A stretch of 64,000 nt of DNA. Source: Candidatus Methanoperedentaceae archaeon. GTDB lineage: Archaea; Halobacteriota; Methanosarcinia; Methanosarcinales; Methanoperedenaceae. The stretch lies in contig PQAS01000050.1 in NCBI GenBank assembly GCA_003104905.1, positions 62,001-126,000 on the forward strand, in the 5' to 3' direction. Made by a program: the position numbers and the translations under genes. The notes beneath the pieces are model-generated. The model ran no database searches and was not told the origin of the DNA. It was given only the letters and a program-made list of their open reading frames with translations. Positions within the stretch are counted from its first letter, which is position 1, and the number at the start of each line of letters is the position of its first letter. This document shows, piece by piece, positions 1-14,949 of this stretch.

Positions 1-1293
1 TTTTTCCATATGCAGAAATCCATTTCCTATCCAATATGATGCCAGGTTTGGTGCAATGATTGTTATATTTTCATCTGAAATATTATTTTTAATACGATAA
101 TTTGCAGCATATTGCGAGAGCTGTATATCATCTTTTGTCAGTATTGGTTGTGAAATAATTGGTTATGTGGCTAAAGTATATGTTGAAATGAAAATAATAA
201 TCAATAGACTTCCAAACAAAGTAATTTCCGAAAATATTTTTTTGTATTTGAAATCGTGATTATCCATATGTTTAATTATGTGAGCTATAGGGATGGCAAT
301 GAAAGATGATGATAGTAAAACCTGTAAAAAGAAAATTTTATAGGCAAAATATTTTGCAATTAATCCATATATATTTATAATTAAAAAAAGGGTATATGTA
401 AAAATTATTCCAAAACATAATATAAAATAAAAGTTGATCCAGGCCTTTTCTTTGTTTTCAATTTTTAAAAGGGTAAAAAGTGTCCCAATAACCAGTAATT
501 CGCCAAATATCATAGAATAATAAAAATTATCATTCAAGTATTGTCCAAAAAAGTATGTTGGAACTGAAAACAACATGAATGGACTTGCAAGAGACAAAAT
601 TTCTTCATACCCTGTCGGAAGATTATATTCATTCAAGAGTTCTTTGGCGATAAGGTATACAAGAACAGCTAATAAACCTGCTGCAGCAAAAACCAATATC
701 TGCATTGTTTCTACAAGTTCAATCCCAAAAATTTTTGAAATATATACTGTAAATAAACTCGGCCCATAAGGATAATGTACCATTTCCTGCATATAATACG
801 AATTATTCAAATTTGGCAAAGATTCATGATTGTATAAATAATCCATCAGTACATAATGATGTACCGCATCTACACTATAACTGATGGGCAAAAAAGCTGG
901 AGAAAAATACAGAGAATAGATGAATACTATTGCAAAAATTATCAGACAATAAATTATTGACTTTCTATAAGAAGTCAATTTTATTTTAAAAAACAATATA
1001 AACAGAATAATTTCAACGGCCATGACAAATGTAATATTAATTACATTCAAATGAAAGTGGAAATAATCTAAGAAATATCCATTTATTACAACCAACGAAT
1101 ATAATACTAAGATTATTATAATCAATAATTCAATGGGATTCTTAAAATTTAGAATCGTTTTCCCTGTTTTTATTCCTGCCAAGAATTGCGCCTTCCACAT
1201 TAGAAATAGAACGCAAAGGATATAAAATCGTCCGGGCATATTTCGGATATCTTGTGGAATTATAGCTGAGACATCATTGTTAGATCGCAGCAA
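1..1293 (-). pseudogene. polytopic membrane protein (GT-C glycosyltransferase-like), interrupted by an in-frame stop
   Basis: The first 376 codons, from a TTG at 1293 or an ATG at 1239, encode about eight to ten hydrophobic segments. An acidic/His patch (VDAVHHY) lies in a loop after the fourth, as in GT-C-type membrane glycosyltransferases. The frame then meets TAA at 163-165. It continues open in the same frame for 54 more codons to the window edge, and that stretch reads like an ordinary soluble domain (DENITIIAPNLASYWIGNG). I therefore read this as one longer gene cut by a nonsense codon, or by a base error, and truncated by the window. The start is uncertain because neither TTG 1293 nor ATG 1239 has a good ribosome binding site. 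The gene is divergent from ilvE. The GT-C assignment rests only on topology and the acidic/His loop. Confidence 0.6.
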
Positions 1294-4145: not shown

Positions 4146-5072
4146 TTATACCTTTTTCATAATTCTTGAGATACCTGTCCAGATCAACAATATTGCAGCC
4201 AGGCCGATTATGATTGCTGCTACTTCTCCTGCTCTACCCATTCCGGGTATGGCATAATCCGAAAAAAGAAGTGTTATCCTGCTGCCAATTTCATTTTTTA
4301 GAACCAGACTTGCAGTCTGCTCTAGCCCGTCCGGATTATTTGAAGCAAGAAACGGCGCTGCAACAGCAAGTCCTAACAATGCAGCAATTCCCACAGCAGC
4401 AACCTTTGTTGTGCTTTCTTTTGTGAGTGTCTCTTCATTAACGATATCCGGTCTTGCTTTCAATATTGCGCCAAATACGATCACAGTTATGAACCCTTCG
4501 CCAATTCCGGCAACTCCCTGGAATATTCCCATGAGAAGAACACCCTGTTTGAGCGGGAAAGTGCCTGCCAGCCATAATTCGAACGCAAGGGCAATTCCAG
4601 GTAATAACATACTCAGGAATGCCCCTGTAAACATTGCAAAAGATCGTTTTACGGAAAGTTTGCTCAAACCGATGAATGTGTAATACCCCATGAAGCCACC
4701 AATTACCCCCATGTTCAATATGTTCGCTCCCATTACTGTGATACCGCCGTCCCCGAAAAGAGACTGTATGGCAAGCACCATTGCCATGAGAAGCACTGCC
4801 GCCCAGGGGCTTGCGAAAATTATTGCAGCAAGCGCGGATCCCACTATATGCCAGCTGACGCCCGTGAGCATTGGGATGGGGACTATGAGGCTCGCAGCGA
4901 TGTTAATTGTCTGGAGAACAAAAATACCAGCGGCAAGTACACCAAAAAGGGGTATCATGTTCTCTTTCATATCATTTCGTGCCCATTTTACTGCCCGTGC
5001 AATAAAAAAGATGGATATTATCCAGTAAATCGCCGCCTGCCCCAGGGGAATGAATGTATCCGGTATGTGCAT
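4146..5072 (-). CDS. cbiM: cobalt/nickel transporter substrate-binding membrane protein CbiM/NikM with fused PDGLE (CbiN/NikN-like) domain
   Basis: This is the substrate-capture subunit of the metal uptake system. The mature N-terminus begins MHIPD, where Met1 and His2 ligate the metal in this family, and further His residues lie in GVSWHIVGSALAAI. About seven membrane helices fill residues 10-225. The C-terminal 80 residues carry the NPDGLE motif, an extracellular segment and a last helix. This is the PDGLE domain that replaces separate CbiN/NikN, and such fusions are more typical of nickel systems. A strong GAGGAGG site precedes ATG 5072. The NikR-like palindrome upstream and the need for nickel in F430 and hydrogenases favour nickel, but the sequence alone does not exclude cobalt. 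Confidence 0.9.
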   Translation of the reverse strand: MHIPDTFIPLGQAAIYWIISIFFIARAVKWARNDMKENMIPLFGVLAAGIFVLQTINIAASLIVPIPMLTGVSWHIVGSALAAIIFASPWAAVLLMAMVLAIQSLFGDGGITVMGANILNMGVIGGFMGYYTFIGLSKLSVKRSFAMFTGAFLSMLLPGIALAFELWLAGTFPLKQGVLLMGIFQGVAGIGEGFITVIVFGAILKARPDIVNEETLTKESTTKVAAVGIAALLGLAVAAPFLASNNPDGLEQTASLVLKNEIGSRITLLFSDYAIPGMGRAGEVAAIIIGLAAILLIWTGISRIMKKV

Positions 5073-5128
5073 TTTTATGTCCTCCTCAAATAATATTTGT
5101 TAATAATTGGCTATTTCGAACATATATC

Positions 5129-5156
5129 GTATTACAATTATGAATATTCGTAATAC
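5129..5156. promoter_or_regulatory. NikR-like operator palindrome upstream of cbiM
   Basis: This is a perfect inverted repeat, GTATTAC-N14-GTAATAC, 28 bp in total. It lies 56 bp upstream of the cbiM start and 118 bp from the likely dut/dcd start on the other strand. The half-site and spacing (GTATTA-N16-TAATAC) match the 6-N16-6 layout of the known NikR operator GTATGA-N16-TCATAC. Its place in front of a nickel/cobalt transporter suggests nickel-responsive repression. No nikR gene is in the window, so the regulator is inferred. Confidence 0.65.
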
Positions 5157-5274
5157 TGATTGAATAATCGTTATAGTATATGGGAGTATATTTAGGTTAT
5201 GGTTGGGATGGTCAAGAGGTTTAAACGATTCTGATGCAGGAATGTTTATCAATTCTCCGCCTAATTTTGAACCT

Positions 5275-5781
5275 ATGTTATCCCATGACGAATTGATTTC
5301 ACTCATTAATGAAAAGCCGCAACTTGTCGAAAAAATGATCGATCCGGATATCCAGGTACAGCCTAACGGAGTCGAATTGACCCTGCAGCGTGTGGAATCT
5401 CATGAGGGATCAGGATCAATAGCTTTTGATAATTCCGAACGAAAACTTCCGTCCACAAAAAACCTTGATTTTGATGATGAGGGATGGCTGGATTTGCCAA
5501 AAGGAAGTTATAAGATCGTATTCAATGAAATTGTTAACATTCCCAACAATATCGCTGCGATAGCAAAGCCGCGCTCAAGCCTTCTGCGATGTGGAGCGAC
5601 TGTTGAGACGGCTGTTTGGGATGCTGGTTATAGCGGCAGGAGCGAGAGTCTCCTTGTGGTATATAATGAGAACGGATTCAGGATAAAGAAAGATGCGCGT
5701 GTGCTGCAGCTATTGTTTTTCAGGCTTGCGAAAGAAGTCAGGAAAGGTTATTCCGGAGTATATCAGAACGAGAATGTTTGA
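5275..5781 (+). CDS. dUTP diphosphatase / dCTP deaminase family protein
   Basis: This protein has the trimeric dUTPase fold and keeps dUTP out of DNA by hydrolysing dUTP or deaminating dCTP. The N-terminal helix MLSHDELISLIN is followed by IDPDIQVQPNGVELTLQRV, the archaeal DCD-DUT signature. AIAKPRSSLLRCGATVETAVWDAGYSGRSES holds the Ser/Arg triphosphate loop and the catalytic region, and the C-terminus is QLLFFRL. An upstream TTG (5203) and ATG (5242) are in frame, but ATG 5275 gives the family's N-terminus. At 168 residues it is slightly short. Which of the two activities it has cannot be settled by eye. Confidence 0.85.
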   Translation: MLSHDELISLINEKPQLVEKMIDPDIQVQPNGVELTLQRVESHEGSGSIAFDNSERKLPSTKNLDFDDEGWLDLPKGSYKIVFNEIVNIPNNIAAIAKPRSSLLRCGATVETAVWDAGYSGRSESLLVVYNENGFRIKKDARVLQLLFFRLAKEVRKGYSGVYQNENV

Positions 5782-6028
5782 ATAATTCTCCTGGAAATAA
5801 GAGTTCTGGCAAAAAACTCCTGTACCTCTGTCTATTCTGATTTTTCCCTAATGGATTTTTGCCGCGGGGTATAAAGCTGTTATTCAGCAAACTGGATAAA
5901 GAATCCCAGTTCTTTACTCCTTTTTTCCCGGCAAATCTTAGAACATGATTATAATAACTAATATTATAAGCATATTTCTAATATATTTTTGCCAATAATT
6001 ATTTAAGTATAATAGAAGAAGTATAGTT

Positions 6029-6211
6029 CGTAATCTCTAAAATATAGGGAATTACGACGGGATTATGCTGCACACATAGTGCATTCGGACAAGGTCAGAC
6101 GCTGAACCAGATGAATATAGGTGTGAGTAGAATACCGAATGATACTGATCCTGCAGATGCAGGGCAAATCACAAAAATGATACCGGGTGATAGTTGTGAA
6201 TCAATCGGTCC
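6029..6211 (+). promoter_or_regulatory. structured leader upstream of the tubulin-like operon
   Basis: The 450-bp gap from 5782 to 6231 holds no convincing gene, but its last 200 bases are rich in inverted repeats. Stem 1 is CGTAAT...ATTACG (6029-6056) with an inner 5-bp stem. Stem 2 is TGCAC/GTGCA (6069-6083). GGAC (6087) can close with GTCC (6208) around GGTCAG-ACG-CTGAACC, GGTGT/ATACC and CCTGCA-GA-TGCAGG (6150-6163). The array ends about 20 bases before the GGAG site of the first operon gene. It could be a cis-regulatory RNA, an sRNA or a set of operators. It matches no riboswitch class I know. Confidence 0.4.
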
Positions 6212-6231
6212 AGACGCAAAGGAGTAATAAA

Positions 6232-6993
6232 ATGGATAAAAATAAAATAGGATATGTTGTCGCTGCTATGATACTAGTAATTGTAATGGGTAATATATCC
6301 ACTGCGGCTACAGTAGAGTTAGTTAATCCTGGGGAACTGCCTGCGCAATTACCCGAAAATAAACCAGTAAATTTTACAATAAAAATCGAAAACTATGCAG
6401 CTGCAAAGAATGTTACAATTGACACAAGTTTGGTGATGGAAGGTAATAATCCAGTATATGATTTCGGAGATTTGAATCCTGCATTGAGTGAGTACAGGTA
6501 CAAGCAAACAATAACTCTTGATACGGCTCTGTTGCCATCTAAAGAGTTCAAGGTGACAATTTCAGGAAAAGCTCCGTTAGTCGAGACTGAAAGGATCAAA
6601 GACACCGACATTGTCATCACAAGATTTGGTGAGGAAAAAAAGAATTATTATGATGTTAGTGTGGATAATAAGTTTGTGACTAGCGATTCATTTGAACTCA
6701 TCATCAAAACAAAGGAGGAATTTACAGAAACTATCAAAAAAATATCCTGGAAAGAACTTGACGAACTCAAACAAGACCTTAATAAAATATTCGATAGTGG
6801 TTTAACTATGGAAGCGCAGAAAATGGCTGATGGGATGGTAAACATCAGAGCACCTGATAATCTTCTACTTTTTGGATTGATTAAAATAGAAAATAATCTC
6901 TGGCTAAATATTGCCGTTATAGTTTTTGCATTAATTGGTGGTATCATTGGCTTTAGATTTGGAAGAGATAAAGGAAGCAATCCTGATGATTAG
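6232..6993 (+). CDS. secreted membrane-anchored protein of the tubulin-like operon
   Basis: This 253-residue protein has an N-terminal signal segment (residues 7-25, ending STAA), an Ig/CARDB-like beta domain (about 28-125: VNFTIKIENYAAAKNVTID), a helical stretch (about 170-215) and one C-terminal membrane helix (about 226-245). The helix is followed by a short charged tail (FRFGRDKGSNPDD). The bulk is therefore predicted outside the cell with a tiny cytoplasmic tail. ATG 6232 is preceded by AAAGGAG; an upstream in-frame GTG at 6187 lacks such a site. It is the first gene of the operon, 22 bases before the tubulin-like gene. I do not recognise the family. It may link the cytoplasmic GTPases to the envelope. 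Confidence 0.75.
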   Translation: MDKNKIGYVVAAMILVIVMGNISTAATVELVNPGELPAQLPENKPVNFTIKIENYAAAKNVTIDTSLVMEGNNPVYDFGDLNPALSEYRYKQTITLDTALLPSKEFKVTISGKAPLVETERIKDTDIVITRFGEEKKNYYDVSVDNKFVTSDSFELIIKTKEEFTETIKKISWKELDELKQDLNKIFDSGLTMEAQKMADGMVNIRAPDNLLLFGLIKIENNLWLNIAVIVFALIGGIIGFRFGRDKGSNPDD

Positions 6994-7015
6994 ATCAAAA
7001 AAGGAGGAATAAGAA

Positions 7016-10000
7016 ATGAAATTTCCAAAATATATATTTGCAGTAGGTGGTGCTGGTAAAGATATTGTATATAATATGCTTGAGAAAGATTGGATTCTCA
7101 GGGATATCATCAAACCAAAAAATGGGCATACGGAAGTAAATATCACTATAATAGACACTGCACTGGATGAAGCAAATGAAAGAGGCCCGGAGGATGTCGG
7201 AGATATTATAAAAATAAAGCAATTCGAGAAGAAAATAAAGGATTTACAGAATGAATATCGCCAGAACATCGAAAGTGCCCAAATGAGCATAGGAACTATT
7301 GACATTAAATATGAATTGTTGACAAGCAGGATGGTTCTAAACACTCCACACGCTCTCATTGGAATGGGAGACACCATAAAAAGGTCAACTGGCACAGAGG
7401 TATGGTGGATGAACGATCCAAAACTCGATGACATAAATCTTGGACTATGGTCTGAAAGAGTTATGGATCACGAGAACCTAAGGCAGCAAAACTTTGCAAT
7501 GGGTGTTTACAGAAAAAGAGCCATCGCAAAAGCAATATATTATAAAGCGATAGCAGAAGGCCACTTCAGACCAAATATAGGCGACAATGAAGATGTTGCC
7601 ATCCTGGCTGGTCTTGGCGGTGGAACTGGCAGCGGTATGACAATAGACCTGGCAAAAAGACTTAAAGCCATACAGCCGATGTCAAATATTGTTTTGTTCG
7701 GATTGCTTTCAACTCTCAAAGAAAGTGGTGATGAAAAAGCAAATAGTTTCGCAATGCTAAGTGAACTGGAATACACCTGTGTGAACAAAGATAAGAATAT
7801 TTTCAAGAACATAATTCTCTGTCCAATTGAACAAACGCAGTGCAGGGGAAGACAGACAAGCAGGAATGAGGATAAGAAGCTTCTTGAAGAATATGACGAT
7901 GTGTTTCCACAAATGTTCATATCGTATTATAACAGAGGACAATCTGCACGTGATGTGTTTGATACGCTGCCCGGATATGCACCTTTTGTAATTGCAACGG
8001 CACAGCTTGTTCGCTACAACATCAATGAAATAAAGAAGTTCAGAGAGAATGTCATCGAAATTCTTCAGAAGAAACAGGCATCGATGATCGATGAAACTAA
8101 GATATACACTGATATTCAAAAGTTCATTGACGAATTCTACAGAGTTAATGACGGTGTGAAAGCGGCATTTTCAGATGAAGACAAGCTGCTAATTGAAAAT
8201 AGATTGTCCAAGTTCAAGAGCATACTGCAAAATGAGTTCTTCAGTAAACAACTTCAGTACAATAGTGTAATATTTCTAAACGATGCAATGCAGGCTGGAA
8301 TAAAACTCACCAAGACGAATAATGTTGACGACCAGATTCCAAACATAAATTCGCAGATAGAAGCGATTGCAATTCCAGCGTTTAAGGATACTGTAGACGA
8401 AACACTGTTTGAAGTCTTAAAAAAAGATGCTTTGATGATAAATGAATTGAGAATTACATTGTCATCTGTCAACAAGATTCAAGACATAGCAATAAGAAAT
8501 GCCCTTAAAGCTGTCATCACAAATGATAAAGGAAGTGTCGGAAGAGAGATAAATAATATTAAGAATGATGCTGAAGATCTAAAAACAGACAGAGCTACAG
8601 TTGAACAAGCACTTGAAGGTCTTTTGAATAAAATGGCAATTCTTGATAAGGACCTGAATGCAAGCATAGAAACTATGTTAAAAGAATGGAAAGAAAGAGA
8701 ATACAAGAATTTTGTGCTTCTATCATCCATTGATGAATTTAACATAGAGTTGAATAAGGACATCATTTATCTCAAGAGTGAACTGAAGGAATATGCTGAT
8801 AAGCTAAACAATACTTCTAAGCTTAGCGAACTCAAGAAACTTGACTTTGAAAAGTCTATAGAAAACATCGAAGAAGTTTTGGACAAAATATATAAAGAAC
8901 TTCTCAGCAAAATAGAGTTCAACTTTACCGACAAAGGCCTGATACGTGAGTGTCTGAGAAATCTTCTCGAATACAGGAAGAATTGCATCAAATATAAAAA
9001 AGGTGTTGGTTTTTTTGATAAATTGTTCAAAACCCGTGAAGGGGAGAATTACAAAAAGTTGAAAAGTGAGATCGAGAGTTTAGAGACAAGAATAAATCGT
9101 ACCGGTATATTCAAAGTCGAAAAAGGCTTAGCTGTAAATACATACAAAACAAATGTTGATACGATTGTACAGACAAAAAAGACAGAGACAGTCAAGTCAA
9201 TGATAGATGATATCAGAAACATGTTCCAATCGGCTTCAGATGAGACACTTTTACATATTAAAGACGTTCTACTTGACCCTGTAAGCAGAAAGGAAATGGA
9301 TCAGAATATTATCGCCCTTATTAAGGAACACAAAAACTATGCGGCAGAAAGCACTAAGATAAGATCAGAAATATCAGATACGCAAAAAAATCTGAATGCA
9401 ATTCTGGAAAGGCTGAAGATACTGGATTCACTTTCACCCAGATTGACGGCAATGCCAACGATTCTTGCGAGATATTCTGGTCTTCTTGATAAATATCACT
9501 CGTATGTCGAGAATATAAAAGACCATGCAGCTGCAATCTACGACCAACACAGAAAACCGATTTACGTTACGGATATACAGCCTTCAAACGTGCTTCAGTT
9601 CATGACATTGCAAAATGACATAAATGGTATGTTGAGGGACAACGGTGAGATCTCAAATCTGAAAACTAAATTAGAGCAGGGATTGTCTCGCACGATGGAC
9701 ACAAAATATAATGTGATGGTAAAGAACGACATCTCTTCAAGAGATGGACAACATAAATGGAGAAACATTAAAGCGGCAAATTCCATTGTCACAATAGCAA
9801 AAATTGTTGAGCCTTCTCTGATAGGTACAGAAATGCGTGTCAGAAGTTCATTCGGTCTGCAGGAAATAACAAGCTACTCAGATTGGGTATGCCAGGTAGG
9901 AGATCCATGGGAAATTGGAATAGTGATGTTTGTAGGCGGTGTACCTCTTGACAACATCGTTAATGTTGTTGATTCAGGTGAAGGATTCCGCACACATTAC

Positions 10001-10189
10001 CTGCGATCAGAGCCTAAGGTATTGTTCCATCACGCATACATGCTTGAAGAAGGAAAACTTGTCAAGAGAAAGAAGGTTCTGAATATTGAAGTTGAGAGCG
10101 ATAAGGCAACACTCTTACAGGATGATTCATCAGTTGGACAATGGTTTGCTCAAAACTATGACATCTTGGAGATTAAAAAATGCCTCTAA
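7016..10189 (+). CDS. giant tubulin/FtsZ-superfamily GTPase (tubulin-like, Tubulin_2/FtsZl-1 type)
   Basis: This 1057-residue cytoplasmic protein has an N-terminal tubulin-superfamily GTPase domain. The T1 loop is AVGGAGKD (residues 9-16), a T3-like IIDTALDEANE follows near 45, and the diagnostic T4 loop GGGTGSG is at residues 201-207. FtsZ has this loop near residue 105, so about 100 residues are inserted. LLSTLKESGDEKANSFAMLSELE follows, as in the Tubulin_2 family. Residues 340-870 are mostly charged helices and likely coiled coil. A distinct C-terminal domain (about 870-1057, WVCQVGDPWEIGIVMFVGGVP) follows. GGAGG precedes ATG 7016. The last 10 bases overlap the membrane GTPase gene, implying coupled synthesis. 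By family it should bind GTP and may form filaments; its cellular job is unknown. Confidence 0.85.
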   Translation: MKFPKYIFAVGGAGKDIVYNMLEKDWILRDIIKPKNGHTEVNITIIDTALDEANERGPEDVGDIIKIKQFEKKIKDLQNEYRQNIESAQMSIGTIDIKYELLTSRMVLNTPHALIGMGDTIKRSTGTEVWWMNDPKLDDINLGLWSERVMDHENLRQQNFAMGVYRKRAIAKAIYYKAIAEGHFRPNIGDNEDVAILAGLGGGTGSGMTIDLAKRLKAIQPMSNIVLFGLLSTLKESGDEKANSFAMLSELEYTCVNKDKNIFKNIILCPIEQTQCRGRQTSRNEDKKLLEEYDDVFPQMFISYYNRGQSARDVFDTLPGYAPFVIATAQLVRYNINEIKKFRENVIEILQKKQASMIDETKIYTDIQKFIDEFYRVNDGVKAAFSDEDKLLIENRLSKFKSILQNEFFSKQLQYNSVIFLNDAMQAGIKLTKTNNVDDQIPNINSQIEAIAIPAFKDTVDETLFEVLKKDALMINELRITLSSVNKIQDIAIRNALKAVITNDKGSVGREINNIKNDAEDLKTDRATVEQALEGLLNKMAILDKDLNASIETMLKEWKEREYKNFVLLSSIDEFNIELNKDIIYLKSELKEYADKLNNTSKLSELKKLDFEKSIENIEEVLDKIYKELLSKIEFNFTDKGLIRECLRNLLEYRKNCIKYKKGVGFFDKLFKTREGENYKKLKSEIESLETRINRTGIFKVEKGLAVNTYKTNVDTIVQTKKTETVKSMIDDIRNMFQSASDETLLHIKDVLLDPVSRKEMDQNIIALIKEHKNYAAESTKIRSEISDTQKNLNAILERLKILDSLSPRLTAMPTILARYSGLLDKYHSYVENIKDHAAAIYDQHRKPIYVTDIQPSNVLQFMTLQNDINGMLRDNGEISNLKTKLEQGLSRTMDTKYNVMVKNDISSRDGQHKWRNIKAANSIVTIAKIVEPSLIGTEMRVRSSFGLQEITSYSDWVCQVGDPWEIGIVMFVGGVPLDNIVNVVDSGEGFRTHYLRSEPKVLFHHAYMLEEGKLVKRKKVLNIEVESDKATLLQDDSSVGQWFAQNYDILEIKKCL

Positions 10190-11613
10190 ATGAAGAAGAC
10201 AATAAGAACGAGTATAAAAAAATATTGACAGATGCAGATACAATTCTATTCTGCATCTTTCTTGTTGTAATAGTTATACTGACTCCATTTGTAATGGACA
10301 TGGTTTCAAGATCCTGGAAAACTGAATTGATGGGACAGATTAAAGAAGCTATAGAGTCCATAGATTCGTCAAGTATTTCGATTTTTATATCTGTTACAAT
10401 AGGATTTTACGTTGGTTCTTTATTACTGTTAGGATTGGATAAATATAAAAAAGTGCAGGCAGTCATAATATCCATAGGTCTTATTTTGACCATCAAATAC
10501 TTGATCGACAATTATGCAACTGATTGGAATATTTATGCATTCCTAATTGGAGCTGGAGTAGGTATTGCACTTGGATCGATTAACAACAGCAAGCCAAAAG
10601 GAGATTATGAACGAGCAGCTAAGAACATAGTAATGGTCTCTACCGGATATCTTGTTATCACATACATAATTCTCTATGCTTCATTGAATGTTGAAAGTGG
10701 CAAGTTCCTTATTGATAGTGGGTCTGTACTTGGATTCTCTGCGTTAATGACCAATTTATTATTATACAAAGGAAAAGGTCCGAGAGTATTTGTAATAGGA
10801 CCGGCGAAATCCGGTAAGACCGTATTTTTAGTCGGATGTTACATTCAACTCGTGAAATTATCACAGGATCAGCCAATCAATCCGAGTAAATCCCTATACA
10901 ATGCTTATAACGAACTAAAGGGAAGTACAAAAACTCAATCTGAAATAGAAGCACAACATTTAGCTGAAAGAAATTTGGTTGATCCGAAAATAAATCCATC
11001 ATGGATTGAAAGAACTGAAGATACAGTGGAATATAGTTTTACTTATGTAATAGGAAAATTGTTTCCAAAAGAAGTAACTGTGAGGTCAGTCGATTTTCCA
11101 GGTTCTTACATAGTAAATATACCAGATTATATGTTTGCTAAACGCACAATTGAAAAGGGAGAAGAGGAATATGTTAAGACAGCCAAATATGTTGAAGAAT
11201 CTGACAAATTGATACTTGTAATAGATAGCAATAACTTTCCTAATTATTCCGAGGAAATTGGTCAATACATAGCAGTCGCAAGACAAATGCGTGAAAATAG
11301 GAAGAATGTCAAATATTATATAGTGATCACAAAGAGTGATATATTCATAGATGATTTTAAGAAAAACAAAGGATATGAACAGTTTTATTCATTTGGCAAC
11401 AAAGATTATGATAACTTTAGAAGTTTCATGACAGAAAAATTCTCAAAAAATGGAGATATTATGACTTTGCTGCCTGAGATCTATGGTGCGCCGATGTATC
11501 CAGTATTCTATGAAACAGAAAAATATCACGGCGCAAGATTGCCCTTGATAAATGATAACGGAAATGTGTATGTGTGTGGATTCAGCGAATTCATGAAAGA
11601 TTTATTCGAATAA
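10180..11613 (+). CDS. multi-pass membrane protein with C-terminal GTPase domain
   Basis: This is a 477-residue protein. Residues 22-195 hold about six membrane helices. The cytoplasmic remainder is a P-loop GTPase: G1 GPAKSGKT (207-214), G3 DFPGS (from Asp305), G4 TKSD (384-387). Hydrophobic beta strands precede each motif (RVFVIG, LILVIDS, KYYIVI). The layout resembles SRP-receptor-beta or dynamin-like membrane GTPases, but I cannot place it in either. It begins inside the last codons of the tubulin-like gene (10-nt overlap), so the two GTPases are probably made together and may interact. A distinct GTPase next to a tubulin-like protein was the hallmark of the FtsZl-1 systems predicted to remodel membranes. 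Confidence 0.85.
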   Translation: MPLNEEDNKNEYKKILTDADTILFCIFLVVIVILTPFVMDMVSRSWKTELMGQIKEAIESIDSSSISIFISVTIGFYVGSLLLLGLDKYKKVQAVIISIGLILTIKYLIDNYATDWNIYAFLIGAGVGIALGSINNSKPKGDYERAAKNIVMVSTGYLVITYIILYASLNVESGKFLIDSGSVLGFSALMTNLLLYKGKGPRVFVIGPAKSGKTVFLVGCYIQLVKLSQDQPINPSKSLYNAYNELKGSTKTQSEIEAQHLAERNLVDPKINPSWIERTEDTVEYSFTYVIGKLFPKEVTVRSVDFPGSYIVNIPDYMFAKRTIEKGEEEYVKTAKYVEESDKLILVIDSNNFPNYSEEIGQYIAVARQMRENRKNVKYYIVITKSDIFIDDFKKNKGYEQFYSFGNKDYDNFRSFMTEKFSKNGDIMTLLPEIYGAPMYPVFYETEKYHGARLPLINDNGNVYVCGFSEFMKDLFE

Positions 11614-11666
11614 CTTATCTGAAAATTGAAATCAAAAACTAAAGAAAAGTAGAAACTGAGGACAAA

Positions 11667-12902
11667 ATGTCAAATTTTGAGATATATGATGATCAACACG
11701 GAAAAATGATACATCCAGTCATTGGAACTACAATAAATGAGAAGATGAAATCTTTTTTCATTAAAAAGATTCGTCTTTATATTGAAAAGGCAGAAAATGG
11801 CCAACTGAACATAATATGCAACATAAGCGCGCATGAAAAGATGGAGAGAATAGAAGGGTATTATCTGTCATATAGAGATACTTACACCGAAAATTCATTT
11901 ACAAAATTCAAGAAAGATTCTGAACGTTCACTGACAAGTCTTGGATTTCACCTGAAAAGTGGATTACCTGCAGATAATATAATTTTCAATAATATTGAGA
12001 AATTTGATTTGGGGGTGACAATTTATGACAAAAAAATACCAGAAGATTATTTACCAATAATTCAGGCGCTGAATGATGGAAATGTGTTGACATTTAAGGG
12101 AGGAAGAATTGATGACATCGCAGATTTTTGTAGGATTATTTTGCAAAATACAAAAGCTGTAAAGATAGTTCTCTCATCAAGAGAAGAGAAATCTGAGGAA
12201 GGGGACATTGACATATTCCTGGACAAGAAATTTGAGGAAAATATCGCAAAAACAATAGAAACTGAAAAGATACTACAACAAAAGCACAGAGAAATGGAAG
12301 AGGAAAGAGCTAGAGAAGAAAATGAAAAAAGAAATAGTCTCATAGATAAAGAACGGATAAATATAGAAAGTTCTATCATTCCAGTAAAAGAATGCCTCGA
12401 ACACCTGAAAGATATAGGATGCGATATATCATACGCCAAAAAAGATTTATCGAGATTTGAAAAAGATATTATAATGATCAAGTATGATCCGTTTTATGCA
12501 TCAAAACGAGAAAAAGGAAGAGAAAAGAGCTATGAAGAAAAAAGAGAAGAAAGTCTGAAAAAATACGAAGGTCAAGGTAACTCCGAAAAAAGACCACAAA
12601 CTCAATACAATCCACAGAATTATGATAATCTATTTGTTGATAATCCTTTCAGAGATATTTTGAAAATTATTGCTATCATTGTGTCAGTAGCTGCAATATT
12701 AGCAGTAATAGTGTTTTTGATCATGCCTCAATTTGAGCAAAAAAATTTCGAAAATGACACTGCCAAAGATCCAGGGAAGGGAGTTACGGGATTGAATTCG
12801 AGTACAGATGCAAGTAATATATCAAAAACAGACCCACAAATAAAAGTCAGTGCAAATACGACACCAACGATGACAAAAAAATCCGAATCAATGAAAAGCT
12901 GA
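11667..12902 (+). CDS. coiled-coil protein with single C-terminal membrane anchor, tubulin-like operon
   Basis: This is a 411-residue protein of unknown family. Residues 1-180 form a mixed alpha/beta domain. Residues 184-233 are a highly charged coiled coil (EEERAREENEKRN). Residues 285-325 are a low-complexity Lys/Glu/Gln linker, 330-353 a single membrane helix, and 355-411 a Ser/Thr/Asn-rich tail expected outside the cell. The gene lies 53 bases after the GTPase gene, with GAGGA before ATG 11667. A cytoplasmic head plus coiled coil plus anchor is a reasonable shape for a receptor or tether of the tubulin-like polymer, but that role is inference. Confidence 0.75.
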   Translation: MSNFEIYDDQHGKMIHPVIGTTINEKMKSFFIKKIRLYIEKAENGQLNIICNISAHEKMERIEGYYLSYRDTYTENSFTKFKKDSERSLTSLGFHLKSGLPADNIIFNNIEKFDLGVTIYDKKIPEDYLPIIQALNDGNVLTFKGGRIDDIADFCRIILQNTKAVKIVLSSREEKSEEGDIDIFLDKKFEENIAKTIETEKILQQKHREMEEERAREENEKRNSLIDKERINIESSIIPVKECLEHLKDIGCDISYAKKDLSRFEKDIIMIKYDPFYASKREKGREKSYEEKREESLKKYEGQGNSEKRPQTQYNPQNYDNLFVDNPFRDILKIIAIIVSVAAILAVIVFLIMPQFEQKNFENDTAKDPGKGVTGLNSSTDASNISKTDPQIKVSANTTPTMTKKSESMKS

Positions 12903-12924
12903 AATCGATAAGGGTGAAGTGAAT

Positions 12925-13536
12925 ATGAAGTGGAAACTCCCAGAGAACGCGGATTCAATAAATGTTATTTTCAGCATTTTAATGATCGAATATGTAATCA
13001 TCTTTATATTGTTCAGTTTTATTGTCCTGCCAGTGAAAGCTGAAACCGGGTCAACTACATATACTACATATATGGACAGCAAATTCGGATTCTACAAAGT
13101 GCGAGATATTACGTCAAACAGTATATTTTCATACGACGAACATACTCTGACAATCAACCAGGGTGACACTATGATCTGGAAAAACGATGACGATAGGGAT
13201 AAAGCCATCAGTATAGTCAGCGATGAAAAGTTGTGGAGTGATAATATTGGACATCTGGGAAGATATAATGCAGAATTCAAATATACATTTACAGCACCTG
13301 GTGAATATACATTCCGAATATCACAATTTCAAGGGCAGCAGATAATCATTGTAAGATCATCACCTCAAACTTTTACTCCTGTACCGACAAATCCAGTTCC
13401 GACTACGTATCCAGCTATAACGCAAACACCCACTTCTGGGACAGGGCTGCCTGATATTCCAATAAAGATAACACCAATTACAATGTTAAGTGCATTGATA
13501 TCGCTGATCGCAATGCATATAACAACTAAGCAATAG
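12925..13536 (+). CDS. membrane-anchored cupredoxin-like protein, tubulin-like operon
   Basis: This is a 203-residue protein. A hydrophobic segment (about 14-37) serves as signal or anchor. A plastocyanin-like beta domain follows (about 45-145: LTINQGDTMIWKNDDDRDKAISIVSDEKLW ... FTAPGEYTFRI, quoted in parts), then a Pro/Thr-rich linker (TPVPTNPVPTTYP) and a second helix at the C-terminus (about 180-198). The Cys and Met copper ligands expected near the end of a blue-copper domain are missing, so the fold may be structural only. GTG 12919 is possible, but GGTGA seven bases before ATG 12925 decides the start. It is the last operon gene, 22 bases after the coiled-coil gene. Confidence 0.7.
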   Translation: MKWKLPENADSINVIFSILMIEYVIIFILFSFIVLPVKAETGSTTYTTYMDSKFGFYKVRDITSNSIFSYDEHTLTINQGDTMIWKNDDDRDKAISIVSDEKLWSDNIGHLGRYNAEFKYTFTAPGEYTFRISQFQGQQIIIVRSSPQTFTPVPTNPVPTTYPAITQTPTSGTGLPDIPIKITPITMLSALISLIAMHITTKQ

Positions 13537-13631
13537 ATCGAGGAGCAATGTTGCGGTTTCCTGCCCTACTCTTGGGAACACCTGAGAAAATTTAGTGCTG
13601 TGGATAATTGAAGAATTAATTATATATTGAT

Positions 13632-13715
13632 GCGGAGGATGGGATTTGAACCCACGAATTCCTTCGAAACCAGCCCCTCAAGCTGGCGCCTTTGACCTGT
13701 CTGGGCAACCTCCGC
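13632..13715 (-). tRNA. tRNA-Leu (GAG)
   Basis: Read on the minus strand, the acceptor arms GCGGAGG and CCTCCGC pair, and the T arm holds GGTTCAAATCC. The anticodon stem CCAGC/GCTGG encloses TTGAGGG, giving anticodon GAG. The long variable arm (TTCGAAGGAATTC region) is class II, as expected for leucine. CCA is not encoded and there is no intron. Confidence 0.93.
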
Positions 13716-13782
13716 AAATGAATGCTTTGATTTCAAAGCATTATGAAATATTCATATAATAAAAGAGAACGTTTCTCTTCTA

Positions 13783-14568
13783 TCAGAGGACATCAACTAT
13801 TTCACTCAATTGTTCCGCTCTATTCTTAATACTACCTGCCGCTTCAAGAGCAATTTCCCTGGCGGTCATAGCGCCTGTTGTTTCGAAGGTCATGACAAAG
13901 GATTCCGGTTTACTGGTCACCTTAATTGAATCCATTTCGCATTTCTCTTCGCATAACCGGCACATGGAACATTCAATTACATTAACTACCTTGAGTTTGT
14001 TCCCTTCCATTTTCAGGATATTCCTTGGACAAACTTCCACGCAGTTTCCACAATAATCACATTCTCCGATAGTCACAATCGGCATATTCTTGAATCCTGC
14101 TGCGACACCGGCCTGCCATTTACTGTGTTTCCTGCCTGTTCCAAGCCTTGCTATTGCTTCTACTACGACTTTATGCTTATCCTTAAGTTCCACAATCGGC
14201 ACCGTTTTATCTGCCGGTTCTACCAGGGGATCCGTTGAAACCAGGTCTCCCGAATATACAACTTTCGGGCCTTCTGCGCTGAGAGTAAGTGATACCTTGC
14301 ACAAAGTGCATCCTTCACCCTTGCAGTTACATTCTTCTGGAAGCACATAGGATTTATTGTCTGTCTTTAATGGGATCAATCCCATCCTTAAGGCAAACTG
14401 TTCATCAAACAATACAGAAGTATTTTCATAAATATTAACATCATCAATAGCCATTACCGGAACTTCCGCAAGTATGCTTCTTCTTAAAGCATTTGCAAAC
14501 GATGCAGAAACATCGGATATAATGAACCTCGCCTTACGCTCGGATAATTCGATTATGTCAATATCCAT
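13783..14568 (-). CDS. rpoD: DNA-directed RNA polymerase subunit D (Rpo3) with ferredoxin-like domain
   Basis: This is the archaeal equivalent of the bacterial alpha subunit and eukaryotic RPB3; it nucleates polymerase assembly with subunit L. The N-terminal alpha-like domain contains ALRRSILAEVPVMAIDDV and a zinc-type loop CNCKGEGCTLC. The inserted domain carries two Cys sets, CDYCGNCVEVCP and CSMCRLCEEKC, enough for two 4Fe-4S clusters, as in Methanosarcina-type D subunits. At 261 residues the length is normal. It is the last gene of the S13-S4-S11-D operon, adjacent to rps11. The symbol rpoD here is the archaeal subunit, not sigma-70. Confidence 0.96.
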   Translation of the reverse strand: MDIDIIELSERKARFIISDVSASFANALRRSILAEVPVMAIDDVNIYENTSVLFDEQFALRMGLIPLKTDNKSYVLPEECNCKGEGCTLCKVSLTLSAEGPKVVYSGDLVSTDPLVEPADKTVPIVELKDKHKVVVEAIARLGTGRKHSKWQAGVAAGFKNMPIVTIGECDYCGNCVEVCPRNILKMEGNKLKVVNVIECSMCRLCEEKCEMDSIKVTSKPESFVMTFETTGAMTAREIALEAAGSIKNRAEQLSEIVDVL

Positions 14569-14949
14569 TTACACACGCCTGCCCTTCTTAGGTTTTGTTC
14601 CATCATGAGGTATCGGGGTCACATCCTCGATCCTTCCAATCTTTATTCCGGCACGTGCGAACGCTCTGATGGCAGCCTGCGCCCCTCCGCCGGGACTTCT
14701 CTGCATGTTGCCGCCAGGGGCTCTTACTTTGATATGTATGCCTATTATTCCTTTATCACGTATCTTATCAGCAAGCTGGTTAGCCATCTGCATGGCAGTA
14801 TAAGGAGAACTTTCTTCCCTGTCAGCCTTTGTAACCATACCGCCGCTTATTTTGGCTATAGTTTCAGCCCCGGTTAAATCAGTTACTGTAATCAGGGTAT
14901 TGTTGAACGAGGAATATATATGAGCCACGGCCCATTTATCGGTTGCCAT
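14569..14949 (-). CDS. rps11: 30S ribosomal protein S11 (uS11)
   Basis: This is a small-subunit platform protein contacting 16S rRNA near the decoding region. Signatures are [34 protein letters not shown] and the basic C-terminus [10 protein letters not shown]. Its 126 residues are normal for archaea. It starts one base inside the rps4 stop and is followed without a gap by rpoD. This is the conserved archaeal order and implies one transcript. Confidence 0.97.

Follow-up and report, generated by a model that had tools for sequence, protein, structure and literature searches.

The closest described relatives of the locus studied here are the FtsZl1 proteins of Makarova and Koonin (2010), now Pfam PF13809 (Tubulin_2). 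In that description, they combine an FtsZ-like N-terminal domain, with inserts between the T1 and T4 loops, with a coiled coil and a C-terminal domain (PMC2875224). The T6-H7 region could not be identified, and the C-terminal domain was considered globular, mostly alpha-helical, and without similarity to tubulins. A P-loop GTPase gene, membrane-bound in archaea, was frequent in the operons, and a vWA gene was present in most, not all, of them; a vWA/FtsZl1 membrane-remodelling system was predicted. The authors named three options regarding filaments, including that none are formed (PMC2875224). Members of PF13809 come up again in part of a 2023 tree study (PMC9871819), and one section of another report records the domain in Borgs (PMC9879509). 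Kaur et al. (2020) place tubulin-coiled-coil genes in bacterial GTPase-centred conflict systems, in DO-GTPase/tubulin operons (PMC7159879). Synechocystis Sll0445 has a Tubulin_2 domain according to its authors; an excerpt of that work reports impaired phototaxis in the mutant and co-fractionation with pilus and photosystem proteins (PMC9880817). Sll0445, a putative relative of the archaeal protein, comes from a cyanobacterium, and the genes next to it are FtsA-like and DivIC-like. We found no biochemical data for archaeal FtsZl1/Tubulin_2 members in the literature.

We analysed a window of 64,000 nucleotides (the whole stretch of DNA under study) from a Candidatus Methanoperedentaceae archaeon. 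It contains a tubulin-family open reading frame of 1057 amino acids at 7016-10189 on the forward strand, with an ATG start in the translation, within the following arrangement.

5791..13623, no strand assigned: 7.8 kb stretch that holds the operon and is missing in the nearest relative, G004 (flank alignment)
6187..6993, +: upstream membrane protein with hydrophobic segments near both ends (hydropathy; 32 of 54 testable loci have an upstream homologue)
7016..10189, +: FtsZl1/Tubulin_2 protein, 1057 aa (open reading frame; PF13809 above cut-off; 54 aligned relatives)
7040..7063, +: T1 loop AVGGAGKD, residues 9-16 (sequence; alignment)
7616..7636, +: T4 loop GGGTGSG, residues 201-207 (sequence; within Pfam match 192-261)
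7931..7984, +: T7/H8 slot, residues 306-323, with D313 and D316, between predicted H7 and S7 (AlphaFold2 model, alignment; assigned by element order)
8051..9730, +: arm of helices as predicted, roughly residues 346-905, between S7/H9 and S8 (two models and structural alignments; ends approximate)
9731..10186, +: residues 906-1057, of which those up to about 1036 are predicted to form the second half of the tubulin C-terminal domain and the rest a tail (model, structural alignment)
10180..11613, +: transmembrane P-loop GTPase, DO-GTPase2-like, with GPAKSGKT, DFPG, and TKSD (Pfam, hydropathy, motifs)
11667..12902, +: fourth gene, coiled-coil-rich, one hydrophobic segment (hydropathy; in 27 loci a homologue follows the GTPase)
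12919..13536, +: fifth gene, protein either exported or in the membrane (cupredoxin-like matches, all sub-threshold; homologues in L035, L036, and L037)
13629..13716, -: tRNA-Leu (gag), right border of the 7.8 kb stretch (ARAGORN)

Judged by its sequence, the 1057-residue protein almost certainly belongs to the FtsZl1/Tubulin_2 (PF13809) family. PF13809 matches residues 192-261 (33.4 bits, E 3.8e-8, cut-off 27), PF00091 (Tubulin) reaches 24.8 bits, below its cut-off of 33, and each model is matched at E<=0.01 by 30/30 aligned relatives. The best sequence match in the PDB is TubZ (E 0.0037). The preliminary description of this DNA had reported a tubulin-type GTP-binding domain with T1 at residues 9-16 and T4 at 201-207, about 190 residues apart. 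Translation bears out both motifs, the T loops and the Pfam match bear out the domain, and the measured spacing is 190. This is the longest value in a range of 168-190 among 53 of 55 distinct relatives with both motifs found, a count that leaves out 30 PF13809 loci of other archaea that were too short. Since the long spacing extends across relatives, the insert is a trait of the family and not a peculiarity of this protein. T1 residues G11, G12, G14, and K15 are identical in all 53 rows that have a residue there, and K15, D47, F160, G163, V164, R166, R168, E236, E240, N243, and T274 are invariant (53 or 54 of the 54 rows). Searching the genome contigs with the single protein gave no matches, whereas the alignment-based search did match; a scan of viral contigs found no FtsZl1/Tubulin_2 relatives. 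The family, and most of the oddities of this protein, are already published (PMC2875224).

The point that we add concerns the fold. An AlphaFold2 model of the protein, made from 30 sequences (mean pLDDT 78.5, pTM 0.61), and a second model, of a Methanosarcina relative that is 21% identical to it (L017; pLDDT 83.5, pTM 0.63), both predict a two-domain tubulin fold; the alignment behind the L017 model omits the clade of the window protein and has 13 of its 27 rows in common with the first. Element names (S1 to S10, H3, H7, and H10) were assigned by order along what we take to be the tubulin fold. In the first model, S1 (6-10), S2 (40-47), S3 (94-101), H3 (168-180), S4 (193-199), S5 (224-232), and S6 (265-271) are followed by a helix in the place of H7 (284-305), a loop, and a strand in the place of S7 (324-334), with low confidence for residues 140-165 and for the loop around T3. 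After S7, the model is mainly helical up to about residue 901, its long helices including 505-598. Three C-terminal strands (919-925, 954-959, and 966-976) then appear, the first and second separated by a helix (938-946), and this order, S8-H10-S9-S10, is that of tubulin. The layout predicted for L017 is the same (H7 270-295, S7 309-319, S8 910-919, S9 953-958, S10 965-975).

At E<=1e-3, all 13 Foldseek matches of the first model in the PDB are tubulins, TubZ, or Odinarchaeota tubulin, and the 8 of the L017 model comprise 7 tubulin-superfamily chains and one 3942-residue doublet-microtubule chain. Rad50-like and SMC-like Foldseek matches of the models were set aside as generic coiled-coil. The best structural match of both models is Haloferax CetZ1 (4b46), to which VIA-align 2 aligns 313 of 330 residues of the first (Z 21.6, rmsd 3.9, range 2..1000) and 319 of 330 of the second (Z 21.5, rmsd 3.8, range 11..998), each range giving the first and last aligned residue only. 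Tubulin 6tiy_A gives Z 19.0 (rmsd 3.9, 348/434 residues, range 5..1036). Identity to CetZ is 13-14%, and CetZ, unlike the window protein, has neither the arm nor the long T1-T3 insert. Because an alignment to nearly the whole of CetZ needs the C-terminal segment, the arm is predicted to be an insertion. We conclude that, as modelled, a helical arm of about 560 residues probably interrupts a complete tubulin/CetZ-like fold between S7/H9 and S8. The long charged helical region noticed earlier is thus recovered as a helix-rich middle in both models, although it is placed inside the fold and not as a C-terminal extension. What had been called a separate C-terminal domain is instead predicted, by the two models and the CetZ alignments, to complete the tubulin C-terminal domain (residues ~906-1036).

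The protein agrees with FtsZl1 as described in 2010 in its FtsZ-like N-terminal domain, T1-T4 inserts, coiled coil (as judged from the long helices of the model), C-terminal domain, and membrane-bound GTPase neighbour. It differs in that T6-H7 and a tubulin-like C-terminal domain are predicted, this domain being globular and mixed alpha/beta in the models and not mostly alpha-helical, and in that the coil is predicted to be inserted. Within titles and abstract openings, we found neither a published structure nor a description of the arm as an insertion.

The slot between predicted H7 and S7 reads NRGQSARDVFDTLPGYAP. D313 and D316 are three residues apart, as in NxDxxD/E, and the Asn is missing. 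No clear T7 motif had been seen in the preliminary description, which pointed to residues 250-340 as the region in which an acidic residue might be sought. Two such residues are found there, in the predicted slot, contrary to that impression; the absent Asn and the poor conservation of the columns agree with it. Among the 54 relatives, column 313 has D in 21 and N in 19, plus others, and column 316 has D in 26, A in 17, and E in 4, plus others. The nearest relatives of the 1057-residue protein vary at the slot and do not retain these acids. In nearly all relatives of the Methanosarcina type, D is retained at column 316, and the alignment made for L017 shows its D302 as nearly invariant. An acid occurs somewhere in columns 313-317 in 51 of the 54 sequences, compared with 63.5% of random five-residue stretches of the same proteins; the three that have none are L035, L037, and L041. 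The invariant positions from K15 to T274 are better kept than this slot. The slot acids are present but poorly conserved. Set against the random stretches, they are weak evidence either way on catalysis.

The operon at 6187-13536 comprises five genes, all on the forward strand. The GTPase has predicted N-terminal transmembrane helices, and its match to DO-GTPase2 (25.6 bits) falls just under the cut-off of 27. In 53 of the 54 testable distinct loci (55 in all), L041 being the exception, the next gene downstream of the tubulin gene is a homologue of this GTPase; the gaps between the two genes range from -143 to 508 bp, with most within 35 bp and many overlapping. Among distinct GTPase copies of at least 300 aa, the P-loop is present in 52/52 and [TNS]KxD in 51/52, and a third motif pattern, tried for G3, fits only 3 of the 52. 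Neighbour homologues were found with iterated HMMs run on the open reading frames of the same loci, with no outside control set, and copies were collapsed only on identity across residues 51-400, which leaves close strains in the counts. The gene at L041:7992-11279 (+) is the sole testable full-length copy with no adjoining GTPase homologue, and G086, the genome that carries it, has another copy elsewhere. The same five-gene layout recurs in the same genus, in Candidatus Methanoperedens nitroreducens Mnv1 (L102, a contig of G009), and this places the window in a species of the methane-eating genus Methanoperedens. A further genome of the genus (G025) carries a second, divergent Tubulin_2 gene with a GTPase-like neighbour (L053:5685-9886, -; 862 aa, 67.4 bits). 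A haloarchaeal homologue of the fourth gene has CarboxypepD_reg and PEGA matches after its transmembrane helix. In contrast to the vWA/FtsZl1 system predicted in 2010, no vWA-domain gene was found by Pfam in the five window proteins and ten from related loci, and no integrase was recognised among the five operon proteins.

The site occupied by the operon can be seen empty. In G004, the nearest relative (RNA polymerase subunit 97% identical), the window flanks at 4900-5790 (89%) and 13624-14700 (94.6%) align to neighbouring places, and a dCTP-deaminase-like gene adjoins the tRNA-Leu/RNA polymerase genes without the intervening 7.8 kb. In four further genomes these genes are also neighbours, 187-518 bp apart; in the remaining genomes, the two flank genes sit on separate contigs or at least one of them was not found. 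Housekeeping genes adjoin the insertion. At 13783-14568 (-), the window encodes an RNA polymerase subunit D of the Rpb3/RpoA type that gives 4Fe-4S ferredoxin-type matches. No convincing terminal repeats and no duplicated tRNA end were found at the insertion, and we therefore claim no integration mechanism. A full-length Tubulin_2 copy is present in 4 of the 31 genomes of the genus, a fifth having a weak, divergent match, and 36 of 185 genomes match across the order. Relatives also occur on four plasmid records, where they are annotated as "tubulin-like doman-containing protein." Based on the empty site in G004, the patchy presence, and the plasmid copies, the operon with its membrane-bound GTPase looks horizontally acquired.

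Apart from this gene, the host genome encodes eight canonical FtsZ/CetZ proteins, and NxDxxD is intact in seven of the eight; a role in division is therefore unlikely for the 1057-residue protein. PF00091 matches number 7 to 10 per genome in the Methanoperedens genus (all 8 sampled, including G000; loci L093-L100) and 3 to 6 in the 37 genomes sampled from the order's other genera. One canonical FtsZ paralogue (L098:3478-4665, -; PF00091 and FtsZ_C) has a Pro-rich tail with a hydrophobic helix at its end, a sequence feature by which it may be membrane-anchored.

The explanation that we favour, and hold to be somewhat more likely than not, is that the FtsZl1 protein would form an accessory cytoskeleton attached to the membrane, acquired and lost through horizontal transfer, and would not be a division FtsZ. 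Its most serious competitor, which we think unlikely, is the idea of the preliminary description, a GTP-binding scaffold that neither polymerises nor hydrolyses; it would have a degenerate T7, an arm and inserts that prevent head-to-tail stacking, and a tubulin domain serving as a nucleotide sensor. A T7 lacking its Asn and the three relatives lacking any acid in the slot are consistent with such a scaffold, as is the earlier failure to identify T6-H7 by authors who allowed for no filaments (PMC2875224); H7, S7, and the C-terminal domain are nevertheless predicted in both models, and the window protein has D313 and D316, with the column 316 D recurring in Methanosarcina-type relatives. The reliability of the models bears on another reading, in which the C-terminal segment folds independently, as the 2010 description had it, AlphaFold2 forced it onto the tubulin sheet, and the helices truly extend the protein. 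Tubulins are plentiful in what AlphaFold2 has seen, and the pTM values are 0.61 and 0.63. In profile-profile comparison with 37 canonical FtsZ/CetZ sequences, only residues 193-253 were matched, the C-terminal part alone reached a probability of 0.1%, and joining the N- and C-terminal profiles without the arm columns did not extend the match; sequence profiles thus yield no C-terminal match, and closure of the fold rests on prediction. Yet proteins only about 21% identical gave the same closure in two models, nearly the whole of CetZ was aligned, and the S8-H10-S9-S10 order of strands and helix was reproduced, and so we regard this reading as improbable.

We give about the same low weight to a GTPase-centred conflict (anti-virus) module, in which the GTPase would be the sensor and the tubulin would assemble as the effector. 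The pairing is the same as in Kaur et al., a tubulin-coiled-coil gene with a diverged TRAFAC-type GTPase (PMC7159879), and patchy presence with horizontal gain would fit. However, the DO-GTPase2 match is below cut-off here, Pfam found no GAP1 or effector domain in 15 operon and neighbour proteins, PADLOC gives nothing credible, the partners are constant and not variable, and housekeeping genes flank the insertion. Far less probable still is a plasmid or element partitioning tubulin like TubZ. The plasmid records, the PF13809 report for Borgs in one section of its source (PMC9879509), and the TubZ match in the PDB would suit it, but it is membrane proteins that recur as partners, and Pfam recognised no DNA-binding partner among the proteins scanned.

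For the accessory cytoskeleton, we infer polymerisation, coupling, and role, and offer a mechanism that is possible but decidedly tentative. The FtsZl1 protein would bind GTP through its T loops. Longitudinal contacts in tubulins are made by both domains, and as both are predicted to be present, its subunits may stack head to tail into protofilaments, each subunit projecting an arm. The arm, or a conserved C-terminal surface, would tie the polymer to the transmembrane P-loop GTPase encoded beside it; we suggest coupling to the membrane because this GTPase adjoins in 53/54 loci and its P-loop (52/52) and [TNS]KxD (51/52) are kept. The GTPase may then switch attachment or assembly of the polymer, and other membrane partners may connect it to the cell surface. 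The impaired phototaxis of the Synechocystis Tubulin_2 mutant and the co-fractionation of that protein with pilus and photosystem proteins (PMC9880817) would be in keeping with such a role. SMC and Rad50 likewise carry a coiled-coil arm within an ATPase head. A bolder picture, which we hold more loosely again, is a filament built as a comb, in which each subunit's inserted coiled-coil arm would couple its GTP state to the membrane GTPase and the cell surface.

The review exchange of the 2010 paper raised the question of whether T6-H7 and the tubulin C-terminal domain exist in FtsZl1 proteins, and with them the capacity to form filaments (PMC2875224). The models favour the first of the options given there, namely, that T6-H7 and the C-terminal elements would be present and strongly diverged. 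What is new, and by prediction only, is that the arm is placed inside a complete tubulin fold, inserted and not appended. With these elements predicted, polymerisation becomes directly testable, and the T7 slot, the arm, and the membrane GTPase would be the points of interest.
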